A stretch of DNA of 64,000 nt from positions 1 to 64,000 of the forward strand of contig NZ_CANLZU010000006.1 of assembly GCF_947495715.1 (NCBI RefSeq), written 5' to 3'. This stretch comes from an uncultured Oceanisphaera sp. (GTDB lineage Bacteria > Pseudomonadota > Gammaproteobacteria > Enterobacterales > Aeromonadaceae). The translations under genes were made by a program, and so were the position numbers. Numbering within the stretch: position 1 is the stretch's first letter; the number at the start of each line of letters is the position of its first letter. This document shows, piece after piece, positions 2,045-58,980 of the stretch. The notes beneath the pieces are model-generated. The model ran no database searches. It was not told where the DNA came from and saw nothing but the letters and a program-made list of their open reading frames with translations.

Positions 2045-3187
2045 TTATTCGTCTTCTTCAAAGTACCAGTAGCCCTGATTGACCAGTGGCAGCAGCACTT
2101 CCAGTAGCGCCTCGGGCTGCTTCAGGCAGGCCACTTCGGGGCCGCAGATGCGGGCCTGATCACACAGCAGCGCGATGGCGTCGGCATCCGGCTCGTCAAG
2201 CTGGTAGCGATCCCCGTCCAGATAAAACACCTCTTCGCTGCCTTCCATATAGAAGCAGCGGGCACCGGCCAGCCGATACAGATGGTCACCATGATCCAGG
2301 CGCAATACCAGCTCTTCCAGGCTGTAGAGCGGCTCTACCGGCTCCAGATCCAGGTCGTGCTTGGCTTCCGAGATCATCTCGCCAAACCAGTCGGCCATTC
2401 GTACCGGATCGTCCAGCAGTTCGACCATCAGCGCCTTCACCTGCAGCATCGCCTGGTGGTCGATGCGACCGTGGGCCGAGCAGGGCGCCATGGCGGCATC
2501 GTCAAAGCGACGGCTGTCCGACTCGTGCGCCAGCATGTGATCGGCAAAGCCGGAAATCAGATCGCGTGCATCCGGGGCGCGAAAGCCGATGGAATAATTG
2601 AGTGCCGGGGTCTCGGCATAGCCTTCGTGCGGACAGCCGGGTGGAATATAGAGTACATCGCCGGGCTCCAGCACTTCGTCTATTTCCGCCTCGAAGGCCT
2701 CGCAGTGGCGCAGGGCCCCGTGGGCGGCAAACTGCTTCAGGCTTTGTGGCAGACCCACCCGCCAGCGGCGGCGACCGTCGCCCTGAATGATAAAGACCCC
2801 ATACTGATCGATATGAGGGCCCACGCCACCACCGGGAGTGGAGAAGCTGACCATCACATCATCGAAGCGCCAGCCGGGAATGAAGCGAAAGGCTTCCGCC
2901 ACATCTTGTACTGCCGGGTGCCACTGGTTGACGGCCTGCACCAGCAGGGTCCAGTCGGTTTCGCCCAGATGATCGTAGCTCTCGAAGGGACCGGTTTCCG
3001 CGTTCCAGCGTTGGTTTTCTCGCCAGACCCGGCGGGATTCGATGTGCGGTTCCAGCGCCAGGCCGGCCAGTTCGTCCGGGCTGAGCGGATCTTCAAAACC
3101 GGGAAAACCGGCCTTGATCAGCAAGGGCTTGCGTTGCCAGTAATTGGCCAGAAAGTCGTCGATATCCAGTTTCAGAGCGCTGTGCAT
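2045..3187 (-). CDS. roxA: ribosomal protein uL16 arginine 3-hydroxylase (YcfD/RoxA)
   Basis: 2-oxoglutarate/Fe(II) JmjC-type oxygenase; the family hydroxylates an arginine of ribosomal protein L16. The 380-residue length fits (E. coli about 373). The iron triad is visible as H125 and D127 in GPHIDQYG and H187 in CPHEGY. The N-terminal DFLANYWQRKPLLIK is the family hallmark. The C-terminal half corresponds to the dimerisation and winged-helix parts. In E. coli the homologue lies close to purB, as here. Confidence 0.93.
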   Translation of the reverse strand: MHSALKLDIDDFLANYWQRKPLLIKAGFPGFEDPLSPDELAGLALEPHIESRRVWRENQRWNAETGPFESYDHLGETDWTLLVQAVNQWHPAVQDVAEAFRFIPGWRFDDVMVSFSTPGGGVGPHIDQYGVFIIQGDGRRRWRVGLPQSLKQFAAHGALRHCEAFEAEIDEVLEPGDVLYIPPGCPHEGYAETPALNYSIGFRAPDARDLISGFADHMLAHESDSRRFDDAAMAPCSAHGRIDHQAMLQVKALMVELLDDPVRMADWFGEMISEAKHDLDLEPVEPLYSLEELVLRLDHGDHLYRLAGARCFYMEGSEEVFYLDGDRYQLDEPDADAIALLCDQARICGPEVACLKQPEALLEVLLPLVNQGYWYFEEDE

Positions 3188-3261
3188 GGGAACCTGTAAT
3201 GATGGGGATAATGCGTTAAGAATAGCGGGCTATTATGCCTAGCCGAAGTGGAGAATGATAG

Positions 3262-3489
3262 ATAGTGAGGGGTGAGGGGTGAGGCGTAGGCTTGGCGCCG
3301 TTCTGCTCCCTCCCCTGAACTCGTGGGCCACAGGATGACAGCGGGGTGTAACGCAAGGGGAGGGTTGGGGAGGGGTTTCTGTATGGAGGGTGAAATGACA
3401 CCCCCACCCAGCCTCCCCCTGGCGAAAAGCCGCAGTTATGCTTGTAACGCCGCTGCCAAGGGGGAGGAGCAAACAGCTCCTTCCCCGGC
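3262..3489. repeat. heptamer array plus paired C-rich hairpin repeat
   Basis: A short GTGAGGG tandem array (about 3265-3286) is followed by the long repeat recurring at 23712, 30056, 43392, 45447 and 47150. That repeat begins CTCCCTCCCC, reaches AACGCAAGGGGAGGG, then GGAGGGG, then a second half CCTCCCCCTGGCG ... AAGGGGGAGG. Each half can fold on itself. No gene was seen in the roxA-purB gap; short open frames here are repeat translations. Confidence 0.75.
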
Positions 3490-19545: not shown

Positions 19546-19664
19546 CCATCACACACATTCACCTTCTTAATACACACACACATCGGCACATGCTCCAGGG
19601 TGCCTTCGGGTCGGAGTCATGGGATGTGTGGAGGCCTAACCCAATACACTTATTTGAGGAAATC

Positions 19665-23824: not shown

Positions 23825-23904
23825 TAAAGACGTGAGCGTTGAGGCGTAAGGAGTGAAGAGTCAGGTGTTTACCCCTCACTCCTCACATTTCACCCCTCAC
23901 TTCA
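23825..23904. repeat. inverted heptamer arms before cdsA
   Basis: G-rich arm (GTGAGCGTTGAGGCG...GGAGTGAAG) and C-rich arm (TTACCCCTCACTCCTCACAT, TTCACCCCTCAC) ending 7 bp before the ribosome binding site of cdsA. Confidence 0.7.
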
Positions 23905-23921
23905 ATAAGAGAGGATATTTC

Positions 23922-24770
23922 TTGTTAAAGCTTAGAATCATCACGGCCCTGTGCCTGATCCCCCTGGTACTGGCCGCCATTTTTCTGTTGCCGCTGCCGT
24001 TTTTTTCGCTCTTTGCCGGCGGTGTCTTTCTGTTGGCTGGCCGGGAGTGGGGGCGTTTTATCGATCCGCGCAAGGCCAATGTGGTGATGGTATCGCTGGC
24101 CCTGGTATTGATTGGGCTGATGGCCATGGTGCCGATCGATCAGGTCTGGCGTCCGGATCTGAATGATACCGTCGCGCTGGTGCTCGGCGCCGGCGCCGCC
24201 TGGTGGCTGATTTCGCTGGTGCTGGTGCTGGTGTACCCGCGCAGCGCGGCCTTCTGGCAAGGCCGGTTGTGGCTGAAGGCGCTGTTTGCGCTGTTCAGCC
24301 TGATCCCCTTTTTCTGGGCGTTGCTGGCGCTGCGCAGCTACGAATATGAACAGAATCCCTTCTTCGGTGCCTGGTTGCTGTTGTTCGTGATGTCGCTGGT
24401 GTGGGTGGCCGACACCGGTGCCTATTTTGCCGGCAAGGCGTTCGGCAAGCACAAGCTGTGCCCCCGGGTCAGCCCGGGCAAGACCATAGAAGGCATGATC
24501 GGCGGTGTGGTGGCGGCCAGCCTGCTGGCACTGGTGGTCACGCAGACCATGGCGCTACCGATGCAACAGAGCGTGGTGCTGCTGGTGGCCTCCGTGGTGG
24601 CGGTGTTTGCGTCCGTGCTGGGCGATCTGGTCGAGAGCATGTTCAAGCGCGAAGCGGGCATCAAGGACTCGGGCAGTATTCTGCCGGGTCATGGTGGCAT
24701 TATGGACCGCATCGACAGCCTCACCGCCGCCCTACCGGTATTTATCGTCGTCGTCCGGGTGTTGAGCTGA
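23922..24770 (+). CDS. cdsA: phosphatidate cytidylyltransferase (CDP-diacylglycerol synthase)
   Basis: Inner-membrane enzyme making CDP-diacylglycerol from CTP and phosphatidic acid, the branch point of phospholipid synthesis. About eight hydrophobic helices; the CdsA signature KREAGIKDSGSILPGHGG followed by IMDRIDS is complete. I start it at a TTG (MLKLRIITALCLIPLVLAA), which aligns with E. coli MLKYRLISAF and has AGAGAGGA upstream. A longer frame beginning at GTG 23853 only translates the heptamer repeat. 282 residues. Confidence 0.95.
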   Translation: MLKLRIITALCLIPLVLAAIFLLPLPFFSLFAGGVFLLAGREWGRFIDPRKANVVMVSLALVLIGLMAMVPIDQVWRPDLNDTVALVLGAGAAWWLISLVLVLVYPRSAAFWQGRLWLKALFALFSLIPFFWALLALRSYEYEQNPFFGAWLLLFVMSLVWVADTGAYFAGKAFGKHKLCPRVSPGKTIEGMIGGVVAASLLALVVTQTMALPMQQSVVLLVASVVAVFASVLGDLVESMFKREAGIKDSGSILPGHGGIMDRIDSLTAALPVFIVVVRVLS

Positions 24771-24832
24771 TGACTCATCTTGTTTTTTTTCAGGCTCTGA
24801 GTCGGTGTACTCCCAGCCTGCAGCCACCAGGG

Positions 24833-24934
24833 CAGAAGCAGAGAGGCGATAAACAGACCCTCCACATCAGGGATGATGTGGCGGAGCCCCCATGGATGGG
24901 TTTATGGCGAGTCTGTGTTCGTTCTCTGCTTCTG
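24833..24934 (+). ncRNA. structured GGA-loop module, copy 1
   Basis: Nested inverted arms: outer 12-bp perfect stem CAGAAGCAGAGA (24833) / TCTCTGCTTCTG (24923) and inner ACAGAC (24853) / GTCTGT (24911). Inside lie hairpin CCACATCAGGGATGATGTGG and core GAGCCCCCATGGATGGGTTT, whose CCCAT-GG-ATGGG can also fold. Both loops hold CAGGGATG or CATGGATG, close to the CsrA-binding consensus. The module at 47531-47637 has the same core and plan but different stem sequences. It lies between cdsA and dxr on their strand; an RNA role is inferred. Confidence 0.6.
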
Positions 24935-24975
24935 TCGGGATACTCAACCTTTTTCGCGTCGACCAGGAGTGCCAA

Positions 24976-26166
24976 GTGGAGTTGTTAACCATACTCGGGG
25001 CCACCGGCTCCATCGGTCAGAGCACGCTGTCGGTGGTGCGTCGGCACCCCGAGCGTTTTCGCGTTTTTGCGTTGACCGCCAACCGGCAGGTTGAGCGCAT
25101 GCTGGCCGACTGCCTGGAATTTTCGCCGCGTTATGCGGTGATGGTGGATGAGGCGGCGGCGCGGGAGTTGCGTCGGCAACTGGCCGAGCAGGGCGCTAAA
25201 ACCCAGGTGCTGAGCGGGGCCGACGCCTTGTGCGAGGTGGCCGCCGAGCCGGAGGTTACCACAGTGATGGCCGCCATCGTCGGGGCTGCCGGTCTGTTGT
25301 CTACTCTGGCGGCGGTGAAGAGTGGCAAGCGGGTCTTGCTGGCCAACAAGGAAGCGCTGGTGATGAGTGGCGAGCTGTTCATCGACTTGGTGCACCGCAG
25401 CGGTGCCGAGCTGTTGCCGATCGACAGCGAGCACAACGCCATTTTTCAGTGCCTGCCTGCCGAATTGCAGCAAAATCCGGGGCGGGGCAGTCTGACGGAG
25501 GCGGGGGTCGGCAAGATACTGCTTACCGGATCCGGCGGTCCCTTCCGTTATACCCCGGTGAACCAGCTGGCCGGTGTGACGCCGGCTCAGGCGGTGGCGC
25601 ACCCCAACTGGTCGATGGGGCCGAAAATTTCGGTCGACTCCGCCACCATGATGAACAAGGGGCTGGAATACATAGAGGCGCGCTGGCTGTTCAATGCCGC
25701 GCCGAGCCAGCTGGAGGTGTTGGTGCATCCCCAGTCGGTCATTCACTCCATGGTGCAGTATTCGGACGGTTCGGTATTGGCCCAGCTCGGCCAGCCGGAT
25801 ATGATGACCCCCATAGCGCATGCGCTGGCGTATCCGGCGCGCATCGCCTCCGGGGTGGCACCTCTGGACTTCTGCAAGCTGGGTGAACTGAGTTTTATGG
25901 CGCCGGACATGGCGCGTTACCCCTGTCTGCAGCTGGCCATCGACGCCTGTGCCAGCGGCCAGGGCGCCACCACGGCACTGAATGCGGCCAATGAAGAGGC
26001 GGTCGCGGCCTTTCTGGCCGGCTCGCTTGATTTTATGGCCATCGCTTCGGTCAACGACGCTGTGATGCAACAGCTGGGCAGCACCCGGGCGGCCAGCCTG
26101 GACGAGATCATCGCGCTGGATGGCGCCGCACGCCGCTGTGCCACCGCTTTGATACAGAATCAATAA
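24976..26166 (+). CDS. dxr: 1-deoxy-D-xylulose 5-phosphate reductoisomerase
   Basis: Second enzyme of the MEP isoprenoid pathway; converts DXP to MEP with NADPH. The GTG start has CAGGAGTGCC upstream and gives [18 protein letters not shown], the expected dinucleotide-binding N-terminus. Metal and substrate residues lie in [12 protein letters not shown] and [21 protein letters not shown]. 396 residues (E. coli 398). A longer open frame from an ATG at 24892 begins inside the structured module upstream and is not supported. Confidence 0.96.
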
Positions 26167-47434: not shown

Positions 47435-47484
47435 TACTCCTCACCCCTCACCCCTCACCCCTCACCCCTCACCCCTCACCCCTT
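47435..47484. repeat. TCACCCC heptamer array
   Basis: Six to seven near-perfect units abutting the left end of the 361-bp element. Confidence 0.85.
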
Positions 47485-47530
47485 ATACCAATCTAAGTAA
47501 AAATATGATCTAGTTTAAAACTGAATACTC

Positions 47531-47637
47531 GAGGAAACAGAGTCACCTCCCGCGACACGCCATAAACCCATCCATGGGGGCTCGGAAAATGCCATCCCTG
47601 GCATTTCACGGTCGTGGGAGCCGATCTCTGTTGCCTC
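47531..47637 (-). ncRNA. structured GGA-loop module, copy 2
   Basis: Read leftward it has the plan of the 24833 module: outer stem GAGGCAACAGAG / CTCTGTTTCCTC (one mismatch), inner stem CTCCCACGAC / GTCGCGGGAG (one A-C mismatch), hairpin AAATGCC-AGGGAT-GGCATTT, then core GAGCCCCCATGGATGGGTTT plus ATGGCG. Stem sequences differ from copy 1 while pairing and the GGA-containing loops are kept. Transcription is not shown by sequence; it could be read from proS. Confidence 0.6.
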
Positions 47638-47700
47638 TCCTTAAGCACCGAGTTGTCTGCAGGAAGCTCCCACAGGCGACTCCGCAGCAGAGGGGCGGAT

Positions 47701-47794
47701 GAAGGGTTCAACTCTACCGACCATCACATGACAGGACGTCATGTGCTGAGCGTCGCAGGGATGCGGTTCAGCGTGTCGGTGGAGTCGACCCTTC
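47701..47794 (+). ncRNA. structured GGA-loop module, rightward
   Basis: A long basal stem (GAAGGGTTCAACTCTACCGA.. at 47701 with GTCGGTGGAGTCGACCCTTC at 47775, small bulges) encloses two hairpins: CACATGAC-AGGAC-GTCATGTG and CTGAGC..CGCA-GGGA-TGCG..GTTCAG. Both loops present GGA, as in CsrA/RsmA sites. A third hairpin, AGTTGTCTG / CAGGCGACT (47651-47681), encloses AGGAAG. Related in style but not in core sequence to the other two modules. Confidence 0.55.
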
Positions 47795-47846
47795 GTTCGA
47801 CCTTTTCGGGGCAGCCAAACTGATCAGTTAGTTTTACAGATTGGTA

Positions 47847-49565
47847 TTACGCTTTAATGGCCTGGGTCAGCTTGGCGACTACATCGTCGATAGCCAATTC
47901 TGACTTTTCGCCACCGCGGCGGGTCTTGTATTCCACCACGCCGTTGTCCAGGCTGCGCTCGCCGATGACGATGCTGTGGGGCACGCCCAGCAGTTCCATG
48001 TCGGCAAACATCACGCCGGGGCGCTCTTTGCGATCGTCGAACAGCACTTCGATACCGGCGGCGGTCAGCTCGTTATACAACTGCTCGGCCACTTCCTTCA
48101 CCCGGGCAGACTTGTGCATGTTCATCGGAATGATGGCGACCTGGAACGGCGCCAGGGCCTCCGGCCAGATAATGCCGCGGTCGTCGTGGTTCTGCTCGAT
48201 GGCAGCGGCCACGATGCGTGATACGCCGATGCCGTAGCAACCCATTTCCAGTACGGTGGACTTGCCTGCTTCGTTCAGCACGGTGGCGTTCATCTTGCTG
48301 GAGTAGTTGTTGCCCAGCTGGAAGATGTGGCCCACTTCGATGCCGCGCTTGATTTGCAGCACGCCCTTGCCGCAGGGGCTGGGGTCGCCTTCCTTGACGT
48401 TACGTAGATCGGCCACGTCCGGCAGGGGCAGATCCCGGCCCCAGTTGATGCCAAAGTAGTGCTTGTCTTCGATATTGGCACCGGCGCCAAAGTCGTTCAT
48501 TACCGCGACGGCGCGATCAACTACCACCGGCAGCGGCATGTTCAGCGGGCCCAGCGAGCCCGGGCCGGCGCCGACGAGGGCGCGAATTTCTTCTTCGGTG
48601 GCGAAGGTCAGCGGGCTGGCCACCATCGGCAGCTTCTCGGCCTTGATTTCGTTCAGCTCGTGATCACCACGTACCATCAATGCCACCAGCGGGGCATCCT
48701 GATCGTCGGCAGCTTTCACCAGCAGGGTCTTGACGGTGCTTTCGATAGCCAGTCCGAATTGCTCGACCAGCTCGGCGATGGTCTTGGCATTGGGAGTATC
48801 GACCAGGCTCAGTTCCTGAGTGGCGGCATCGGCGCTGGCCTTGGGCGCAACGGCTTCGGCCATTTCGATGTTGGCGGCGTAATCGGACTCGGTAGAGAAG
48901 GCGATATCATCTTCACCGCTCTGGGCCAGCACGTGGAATTCGTGCGAGGCGCTGCCGCCGATGGCACCGGTGTCGGCCAGCACGGCACGGAAGTCCAGAC
49001 CCATGCGTTCGAAGATTCGGCTATAAGCCTGATACATGTCGTCGTAGGTCTGCTCCAGACTCTGCAGGCTGGTGTGGAAGGAATAGGCATCCTTCATGAT
49101 GAATTCGCGCGAGCGCATTACGCCGAAACGGGGGCGCACTTCATCACGGAACTTGGTCTGAACCTGATACAGATTCAGCGGCAACTGCTTGTAGGAAGAG
49201 ACTTCGTTGCGCACCATGGAGGTAATCACTTCTTCATGGGTCGGGCCCAGCACAAAGCCGCGATCGTGACGGTCTTTAATACGCAGCAGCTCGGGGCCGA
49301 ATTTGTCCCAACGGCCGGTTTCATGCCACAGCTCGGCGGGTTGCACCACCGGCATCAGCATTTCTACCGCACCGGCGCGGTTCATTTCTTCCCGCACTAT
49401 GGCGGCGACCTTGTTCAATACCCGCAGGCCACTGGGCAGCCAGGTGTACAGGCCGGACGCCAGCCGGCGGATCATGCCCGCACGCAGCATCAGCTGGTGG
49501 CTGATCACCTCGGCATCGCTCGGGGTCTCTTTGAGGGTGGAAAGCAAGTATTGAGTGGTACGCAT
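47847..49565 (-). CDS. proS: prolyl-tRNA synthetase
   Basis: Bacterial-type class II synthetase, 572 residues as in E. coli. [26 protein letters not shown] start; motif 2 in [26 protein letters not shown]; the editing (INS) domain about 225-405; motif 3 [20 protein letters not shown]-terminal anticodon-binding domain. Its TAA lies at the junction with the 361-bp element, yet the C-terminus ([15 protein letters not shown]) looks complete. Neighbours trmO and rcsF match the E. coli order. Confidence 0.97.
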
Positions 49566-58707: not shown

Positions 58708-58980
58708 ACTTACTTGAGCATGGATGCTCAAGTCAGGGCAAGATTACGAAAGCCTGCGGATTTACTGGGTTTGCGAGAAATATCGCTTCCAAATTAGGAC
58801 CCCAAAGGGGCAAAAGTTTTAGAATTCCTTGCGATTCACCGTTATGAGCAGTTTATGGACAGAAAAAGCTCTAAAAAGAACACTTTCAACATGATTTGGT
58901 TGTCAGGAAGTAGCTGAAAGCCCTTATTTGGCCCGGTTCTTCGTAATCTTGCCCTGATGCTCAAGTAAGTTTACTTATAA
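58708..58980 (+). terminator. operon terminator split by MITE insertion
   Basis: Removing the MITE and one target copy restores a 14-bp perfect stem ACTTACTTGAGCAT / ATGCTCAAGTAAGT (GG loop) followed by TTACTT, directly 3' of the ACP stop. At present the 5' side plus the left target copy still pair over 10 bp (ACTTGAGCAT / ATGCTCAAGT) but lack the T-rich tail. Confidence 0.75.
58734..58956. mobile_element. 223-bp MITE with 17-bp inverted ends and 10-bp target duplication
   Basis: Both ends are CAGGGCAAGATTACGAA as perfect inverted repeats (58734-58750 and 58940-58956). The direct repeat ATGCTCAAGT flanks it at 58724-58733 and 58957-58966. No transposase inside. CAGGG ends with an 8-10 bp duplication recall the ISAs1 family, which would have to act in trans; that assignment is inference. 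Confidence 0.88.

Follow-up and report, generated by a model that had tools for sequence, protein, structure and literature searches.

The segment between cdsA and dxr in the genome of an uncultured Oceanisphaera sp. can be folded into a compact and extensively paired structure, which raises the question of what kind of element it is and what it might do between two housekeeping genes. The initial annotation of the window (the whole stretch of 64,000 nucleotides that was analysed) had connected the segment to a second copy on the opposite strand and had put forward two readings: a CsrA-binding RNA module, or a structured DNA repeat, placed in a housekeeping transcript. The features that are relevant to the question are collected in Table 1.

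Table 1. Coordinates (positions in the window) of the modules, the enclosing MITE and the neighbouring genes
Feature	Position	Strand	Remarks
cdsA	23853..24770	+	PF01148
cdsA-dxr spacer	24771..24975	+	made by insertion; 208 nt including the cdsA stop codon
Module between cdsA and dxr	24833..24934	+	three-way junction: outer stem and two hairpins
Hairpin 1 of this module	24862..24881	+	hexaloop AGGGAT at 24869-24874, C-G closing pair
Hairpin 2 of this module	24886..24908	+	loop ATGGAT at 24892-24897, 5-nt 3' bulge TTTAT
AGGAG, likely dxr ribosome-binding site in the filled site	24965..24969	+	from sequence
dxr	24976..26166	+	PF02670, PF08436, PF13288
Complete MITE, 361 bp	47486..47846		ends TACCAATC..GATTGGTA, TTA flanks at 47483-47485 and 47847-47849
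Left module of the MITE	47535..47630	-	second copy of the initial annotation (47531-47637)
Right module of the MITE	47702..47796	+	head to head with the left module; hairpin 1 loop AGGAC (N omitted)
Prolyl-tRNA synthetase-like ORF	47847..49565	-	named by eye; terminated by the TTA/TAA at the junction with the MITE

Architecture of the module and selection on its structure

The modules share one layout: a variable outer stem, hairpin 1, the letters GAGC, and hairpin 2 with a conserved 3' bulge. In the cdsA-dxr copy, which is matched by the second of our covariance models (R2, see below) at positions 24839-24931 with 82.1 bits, the two loops are 17 nt apart (24875-24891). Among 34 copies from the host genome the letters GAG that precede hairpin 2 are invariant (GAG or AAG in other genera) and those that precede hairpin 1 are mostly GACC. 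The comparison of the two original copies was reproduced in full: the core GAGCCCCCATGGATGGGTTTATGGCG is identical and the hairpin 1 loop reads AGGGAT in both segments (24833-24934 and 47531-47637), and the outer, inner and hairpin stems are unlike in their letters with the pairing kept.

On the strand that had been chosen initially these segments yielded RNA fold z-scores of -6.1 and -5.3, respectively, and none of 200 shuffled sequences was equally stable; the corresponding DNA z-scores were -6.2 and -5.8, and the opposite strands folded comparably (-6.7 and -6.2). An alignment of the 34 host-genome copies, made by MAFFT alone, contained double (compensated) changes at 18 of the 29 predicted pairs. 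In the alignment of 33 matches from several genera such changes were found at 25 of the 29 pairs (shuffled mean 21.3), 92.7% of the cells are paired, with a covariation score of 0.78 (0.20 for shuffles, 0.09-0.13 for slid partners), figures that lean towards structure because this alignment was fitted to it. The selection on structure that had been proposed from two copies is strongly supported.

Copy number, insertion sites and composite forms

A covariance-model search of this genome and its relatives, and a comparison with Rfam, had been suggested in the initial annotation. By blastn with the cdsA-dxr segment at least 40 places were recovered in the host genome (the best 40 of 79 candidates); a first covariance model (A1), built from the 34 host-genome copies, gave at least 150 matches there (the best 150 of 2036 candidates), and further copies were found in relatives. 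A second model, built from the 33 matches that include several genera, identified 90 modules in 825,417 bases (five host contigs), 85 of them scoring at least 47 bits and 5 below 29 bits, which for a genome of 3.65 Mb extrapolates to about 400 modules. Both original copies are real and belong to a genome-wide family; this family, the module next to the second copy (47702-47796) and the MITE that encloses the two had been overlooked.

Four loci, three from Zobellella (L187, L220 and L239) and one from Oceanisphaera (L225), align to the host genome over 2.2-3.1 kb with 82-89% identity, which would place it in the Aeromonadaceae, near these two genera. In a sample of the order, using strict filters, 34 of the 148 genomes, from 12 of the 65 genera, had module matches, and none was found in the five genomes of the sister genus g10. 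The phylum sample gave matches in 36 of 398 genomes: 34 in the same class, five of which are weak and all in one family, and two weak single matches outside it. An exact scan of named genomes for the hairpin 2 pattern returned at least 117 stretches, and the genera among the 80 matches listed include Stenotrophomonas, Xanthomonas, Microbulbifer, Rheinheimera, Marinobacter, Halopseudomonas, Alcanivorax, Alteromonas, Moritella and others. No match was found in plasmids and phages (blastn with the module) or in the viral contigs of IMG/VR (exact hairpin 2 pattern). The comparison with Rfam yielded no family that matches the modules: within the 64-kb window no Rfam 15 family lay on the module at or above its gathering threshold, the module alone gave a best hit of 18.7 bits (cut-off 70) at E-values up to 10, and 20 further module loci gave three hits, none of them on a module. 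A t44 RNA (RF00127) match was seen at 19555-19640 of the window (70 bits).

How the module arrived between cdsA and dxr can be read from 22 congeneric cdsA loci (23 genomes were searched, one without a match). The spacer measures 2-12 nt in 18 of these, 85 nt in two, 208 nt in the host genome and 229 nt in genome G158, and the latter two are the only loci with a module, which in G158 has the opposite orientation and carries an arm (see below). In the nearest empty sites cdsA and dxr overlap as TGATG; by this comparison the module was inserted, specifically in this lineage, where the stop and start codons overlap. At a second site (contig C3, 71.5 kb) the module is present in three species and absent in two, and the flanks suggest, in this one case, a duplication of roughly 18 nt; at a third (64.5 kb) it is present in the host genome and absent in G158. 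The wording 'placed in a housekeeping transcript' misleads: the repeat is dispersed, its insertions are polymorphic, and it landed by chance between the two genes. The modules form a real and large family of mobile structured repeats, of which no published description was found in the literature that was searched by sequence and topic (a coverage mostly without subscription journals).

We infer from comparison with relatives that dxr starts at GTG 24976. The ATG at 24892, in the loop of hairpin 2, opens a frame in phase with dxr (24892-26166), and an annotation pipeline could wrongly begin dxr there and not at the GTG.

The modules are often paired: 52 of the 90 census modules are arranged in 26 head-to-head (-,+) pairs and 38 are single. 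This order was found for 26 of the 27 neighbours within 170 nt in the host census and for 35 of the 42 neighbours less than 400 nt apart among the matches listed for the named genomes. The linkers of the 26 close pairs measure 69-72 nt in 23 cases and 118, 132 and 165 nt in the others; among the matches listed for the named genomes the sequence of the linkers between inverted modules was varied, and no ORF or gene common to them was seen by eye. TACCAA..TTGGTA ends delimit 11 of the 26 head-to-head pairs (356-361 bp), with identical TNA on both flanks in ten and unequal flanks in one. The combination of inverted ends and target duplication that characterises a MITE was thereby found in 10 of 26 pairs, as compared to 8 of 2000 random intervals, and in 4 of the 38 singles, for which wider flanks were used and which have no matching control. 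The cdsA-dxr copy has no MITE ends, and a search of the 825 kb for longer MITEs, with 0.85-2.6 kb between the ends and the same TNA flanks, found none. Duplications of TNA are typical of some IS5-like and ISAzo13 elements. Tandem heptamers of the GGGTGAG type adjoin the MITE in the window (about 47435-47482).

A 50-nt arm consisting of two hairpins was found in 14 copies within the 825 kb, by eye always in the loop of hairpin 1 and after GG. The possibility that it represents an independent insertion element was rejected, and the arm is treated as a long form of the module, because all 14 copies lie in hairpin 1 loops. The loop of hairpin 2 can be expanded as well, by long arms that start with a REP-like GGGGC..AGCTTGC hairpin (C1 236013, C1 287072 and L236 2411-2634), and such an expansion was also noted by eye in 8 of the 14 copies with the hairpin 1 arm. 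Arrays of alternating modules with a regular period, as in a BIME-like amplification, occur in L093 (genome G109, 1367-2362) and in L262 of Xanthomonas hortorum (2492-3354).

Conserved loops, genomic setting and candidate functions

In the 90 host modules the loop of hairpin 1 reads C-ANGGAX-G in 72, C-AGGAX-G (N omitted) in 11 and otherwise in 7, the loop of hairpin 2 reads C-ANGGAX-G in 85 and otherwise in 5, and all four letters occur at both N and X. When all hairpins with a stem of at least 7 bp and a 6-nt loop were collected from the 825 kb, ANGGAX was present in 61 of the 65 in or beside modules versus 2 of the 146 elsewhere, one of which resembles an unlisted module. One of these two exceptions, an isolated hairpin of 8 bp with a C-ATGGAT-G loop, lies in the window at 58712-58733, just downstream of a frame that resembles an acyl carrier protein (named by eye). 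Among the matches listed for the named genomes, hairpin 1 has ANGGAX in 92 and AGGAX in 9 of 134 cases, the remaining 33 being divergent, cut, misaligned or armed; a count of hairpin 2 would be unfair there, since the search pattern fixed its letters in one hairpin 2 per fetched locus.

According to the available text of Duss et al. 2014 (PMC4005645), the high-affinity RsmE/CsrA site is an ANGGAX hexaloop directly on a stem, in which N can be omitted at lower affinity. The consulted part of a review (PMC7652899) gives the CsrB repeat as CAGGA(U/A/C)G and lists 44 six-nucleotide loops among the hairpin loops of 55 SELEX RNAs. The likeness to the CsrA consensus that had been pointed out initially is closer than was claimed, both loops of the host modules being almost always the published high-affinity hexaloop with N and X free (PMC4005645, same text). 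It is mainly because the fixed and the free loop positions both agree that CsrA is preferred here. One CsrA is encoded in the host genome, and each of the 34 order-sample genomes with modules has a CsrA match; this co-occurrence is uninformative, as 141 of the 148 genomes have CsrA.

A bivalent CsrA-binding RNA would be the best single account of the conserved letters, and the best explanation that we can offer, tentatively and at somewhat less than an even chance, is a mobile structured repeat with a two-site CsrA-binding RNA as its conserved cargo. The two initial readings would then be compatible: the module certainly is a DNA repeat, with copies dispersed over the genome, and it may also act as an RNA. 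It would fold as RNA when read through from neighbouring genes, and one CsrA/RsmA dimer would bind or bridge both hexaloops. As a set, the hundreds of copies would be CsrA decoys dispersed over the genome, a single copy could link the mRNA that carries it to CsrA, and in a head-to-head pair one module would always be in sense, whichever strand is transcribed.

Two aspects of the genomic setting count in favour of the RNA/CsrA explanation: the extragenic placement with its avoidance of divergent spacers, and the lack, in most cases, of a terminator-like site in front of the element. No module out of 90 has its midpoint in a called gene (host genome, custom codon-based caller); four reach 23-39 nt into the end of a called ORF, including the cdsA-dxr copy, where the called start behind the overlap is the doubtful ATG 24892. 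Divergent spacers account for 1 of 64 module loci versus 85 of 348 host spacers of at least 80 nt. In 63 of 82 cases no intrinsic-terminator-like site separates the arriving transcript from the element; such a site precedes the element in 19 and follows it in 8, and 86 of 259 module-free spacers contain one.

Several other observations count against a role of CsrA. There is no significant sense bias (16 sense and 11 antisense among the host singles in co-directional spacers); in a cross-genus comparison 9 sense and 20 antisense were counted from the unreliable gene calls of a crude caller, a result that is not relied upon since 49 of 164 modules fell inside its ORFs. About a quarter of the hairpin 1 loops among the matches listed for the named genomes are not A(N)GGAX, 14 copies in the 825 kb have the arm in place of the hairpin 1 loop, and CsrA leaves the conserved GAGC junction and the hairpin 2 bulge unexplained. 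An excess of G.T over A.C, taken as an indicator of which strand folds, amounts to 87:19 (census alignment) and 40:10 when the pairs are taken from the + strand, and is weak or absent on pairs common to the folds of both strands (10:4) or derived from the reverse fold (10:10), so that this test is only suggestive. Finally, the stems are longer than those of most SELEX ligands, which mostly have four or fewer contiguous pairs (PMC7652899, consulted part).

The main rival, in our estimate rather unlikely, is a REP-like DNA hairpin: a folded single strand that serves mobility and is recognised by a trans-acting transposase or other enzyme, with the loops as recognition letters and without an RNA function. 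It fits with the extragenic position, the at least 150 copies, the alternating orientation and arrays, the presence or absence at the same site among relatives and the lack of a significant sense bias, and G.T pairs are tolerated in single-stranded DNA too. Co-orientation with the replication fork, determined for 150 of 152 matches listed (at most 150 candidates scored per genome) and a terminus assumed opposite dnaA, is notable only in the singles of genus g6 (32 of 45), with no fork bias in genus g1 (23:27) or in the five genomes together (58 with, 46 against). The enzyme itself was not found: Y1 transposase matches occur in 17 of 34 genomes with modules versus 48 of 114 without a module match, and genome G010, with at least 28 modules, has none. 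Transposition of the MITE would moreover be expected to use its terminal repeats and not the hairpins, and it would be by coincidence that the loops agree with the CsrA site in both their fixed and their free letters.

A structured RNA that serves a different purpose (protection of mRNA 3' ends, processing or attenuation), the GGA loops of which make a tertiary contact or bind another protein, we consider improbable: the selection on structure, the location after genes and the junction and bulge letters that CsrA does not explain would suit it, whereas the modules match no Rfam family and again the sense bias is not significant. A chance or compositional palindrome, for which nothing speaks except the GC-rich stems, is practically negligible in view of the fold z-scores of -5.3 to -6.7 and is already refuted by the at least 150 genome matches and the double changes in 25 of 29 pairs.

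As the two conserved loops of the module resemble a CsrA landing site, genomes of this kind may contain a large number of dispersed decoys for a global regulator. Should CsrA bind the modules, there would be about 800 high-affinity-type hairpins in such a genome (about 400 modules, extrapolated), as compared to the 22 GGA sequences given for E. coli CsrB in the consulted part of PMC7652899, and transposition would be a route for reshaping a global regulatory network. It is conceivable, and put forward with reserve, that a mobile family has spread hundreds of two-site CsrA-binding modules across the genomes of gammaproteobacteria. Its spread, selfish or favoured by the host, would rewire or buffer a global post-transcriptional regulator, and paired decoys would work in either direction of transcription. 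Even without CsrA, a repeat family that is large, structured and strongly covarying and that Rfam does not list is useful for RNA-family libraries and for annotation.

Comparison with known repeat and RNA systems

ERIC and other long palindromic repeats are long imperfect palindromes between genes. The module is a long imperfect intergenic palindrome as well and is set apart from ERIC, compared here by general description only, in that its stem letters vary with pairing and loop letters kept.

REP sequences are defined by a GT(A/G)G head before the palindrome and by a cognate Y1 (RAYT) transposase (PMC2817692, in the part available). The modules resemble the REPs and BIMEs described there in being extragenic palindromes with more than 100 copies, alternating orientation and stems kept by complementary changes, and the BIME-like arrangement, alternating orientation with short regular spacing, was indeed found. 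They differ, on the same partial description, in that they have no GT(A/G)G head, form a three-way junction of about 100 nt and not a single short palindrome, keep their loop letters and have no link to Y1 transposases. The host genome encodes one IS605 TnpA and one broken Y1 ORF, and no significant module match was found in the loci of about 3 kb around these ORFs (one 24-nt match, E 0.34). Membership of REP/RAYT was rejected on these grounds: no head, no transposase link and no significant module match at the host Y1 loci. The host locus L115 (G000 contig C2, about 27 kb) contains an IS605-like element with TnpA- and TnpB-like ORFs; beyond tnpA lie a CCCCG..CGGGG hairpin and CTTTACGG, faintly like hairpin 2, and downstream of the element a CCGAGTC heptamer array that is unlike the GGGTGAG type.

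With prokaryotic MITEs, such as QMITE1/2 of Coxiella (PMC5896051 and PMC10969869, in the excerpts available), the family shares the terminal ends, the TNA flanks in some pairs and the intergenic position. Unlike in those descriptions, the module also occurs outside the MITE and in many genera, and its hairpins are conserved cargo and not terminal repeats; membership of the MITE class holds for part of the copies.

CsrB/CsrC and RsmX/Y/Z, as far as the consulted parts of PMC7652899 and PMC4005645 describe them, likewise present GGA loops on stems with several sites per RNA. The module differs in having two sites, in being dispersed as hundreds of DNA copies (by extrapolation) and in having no known promoter of its own or Gac/UvrY control. 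In its sequence and predicted structure it nevertheless displays what marks a Csr/Rsm decoy: an ANGGAX hexaloop on a stem, and more than one of these per putative RNA.
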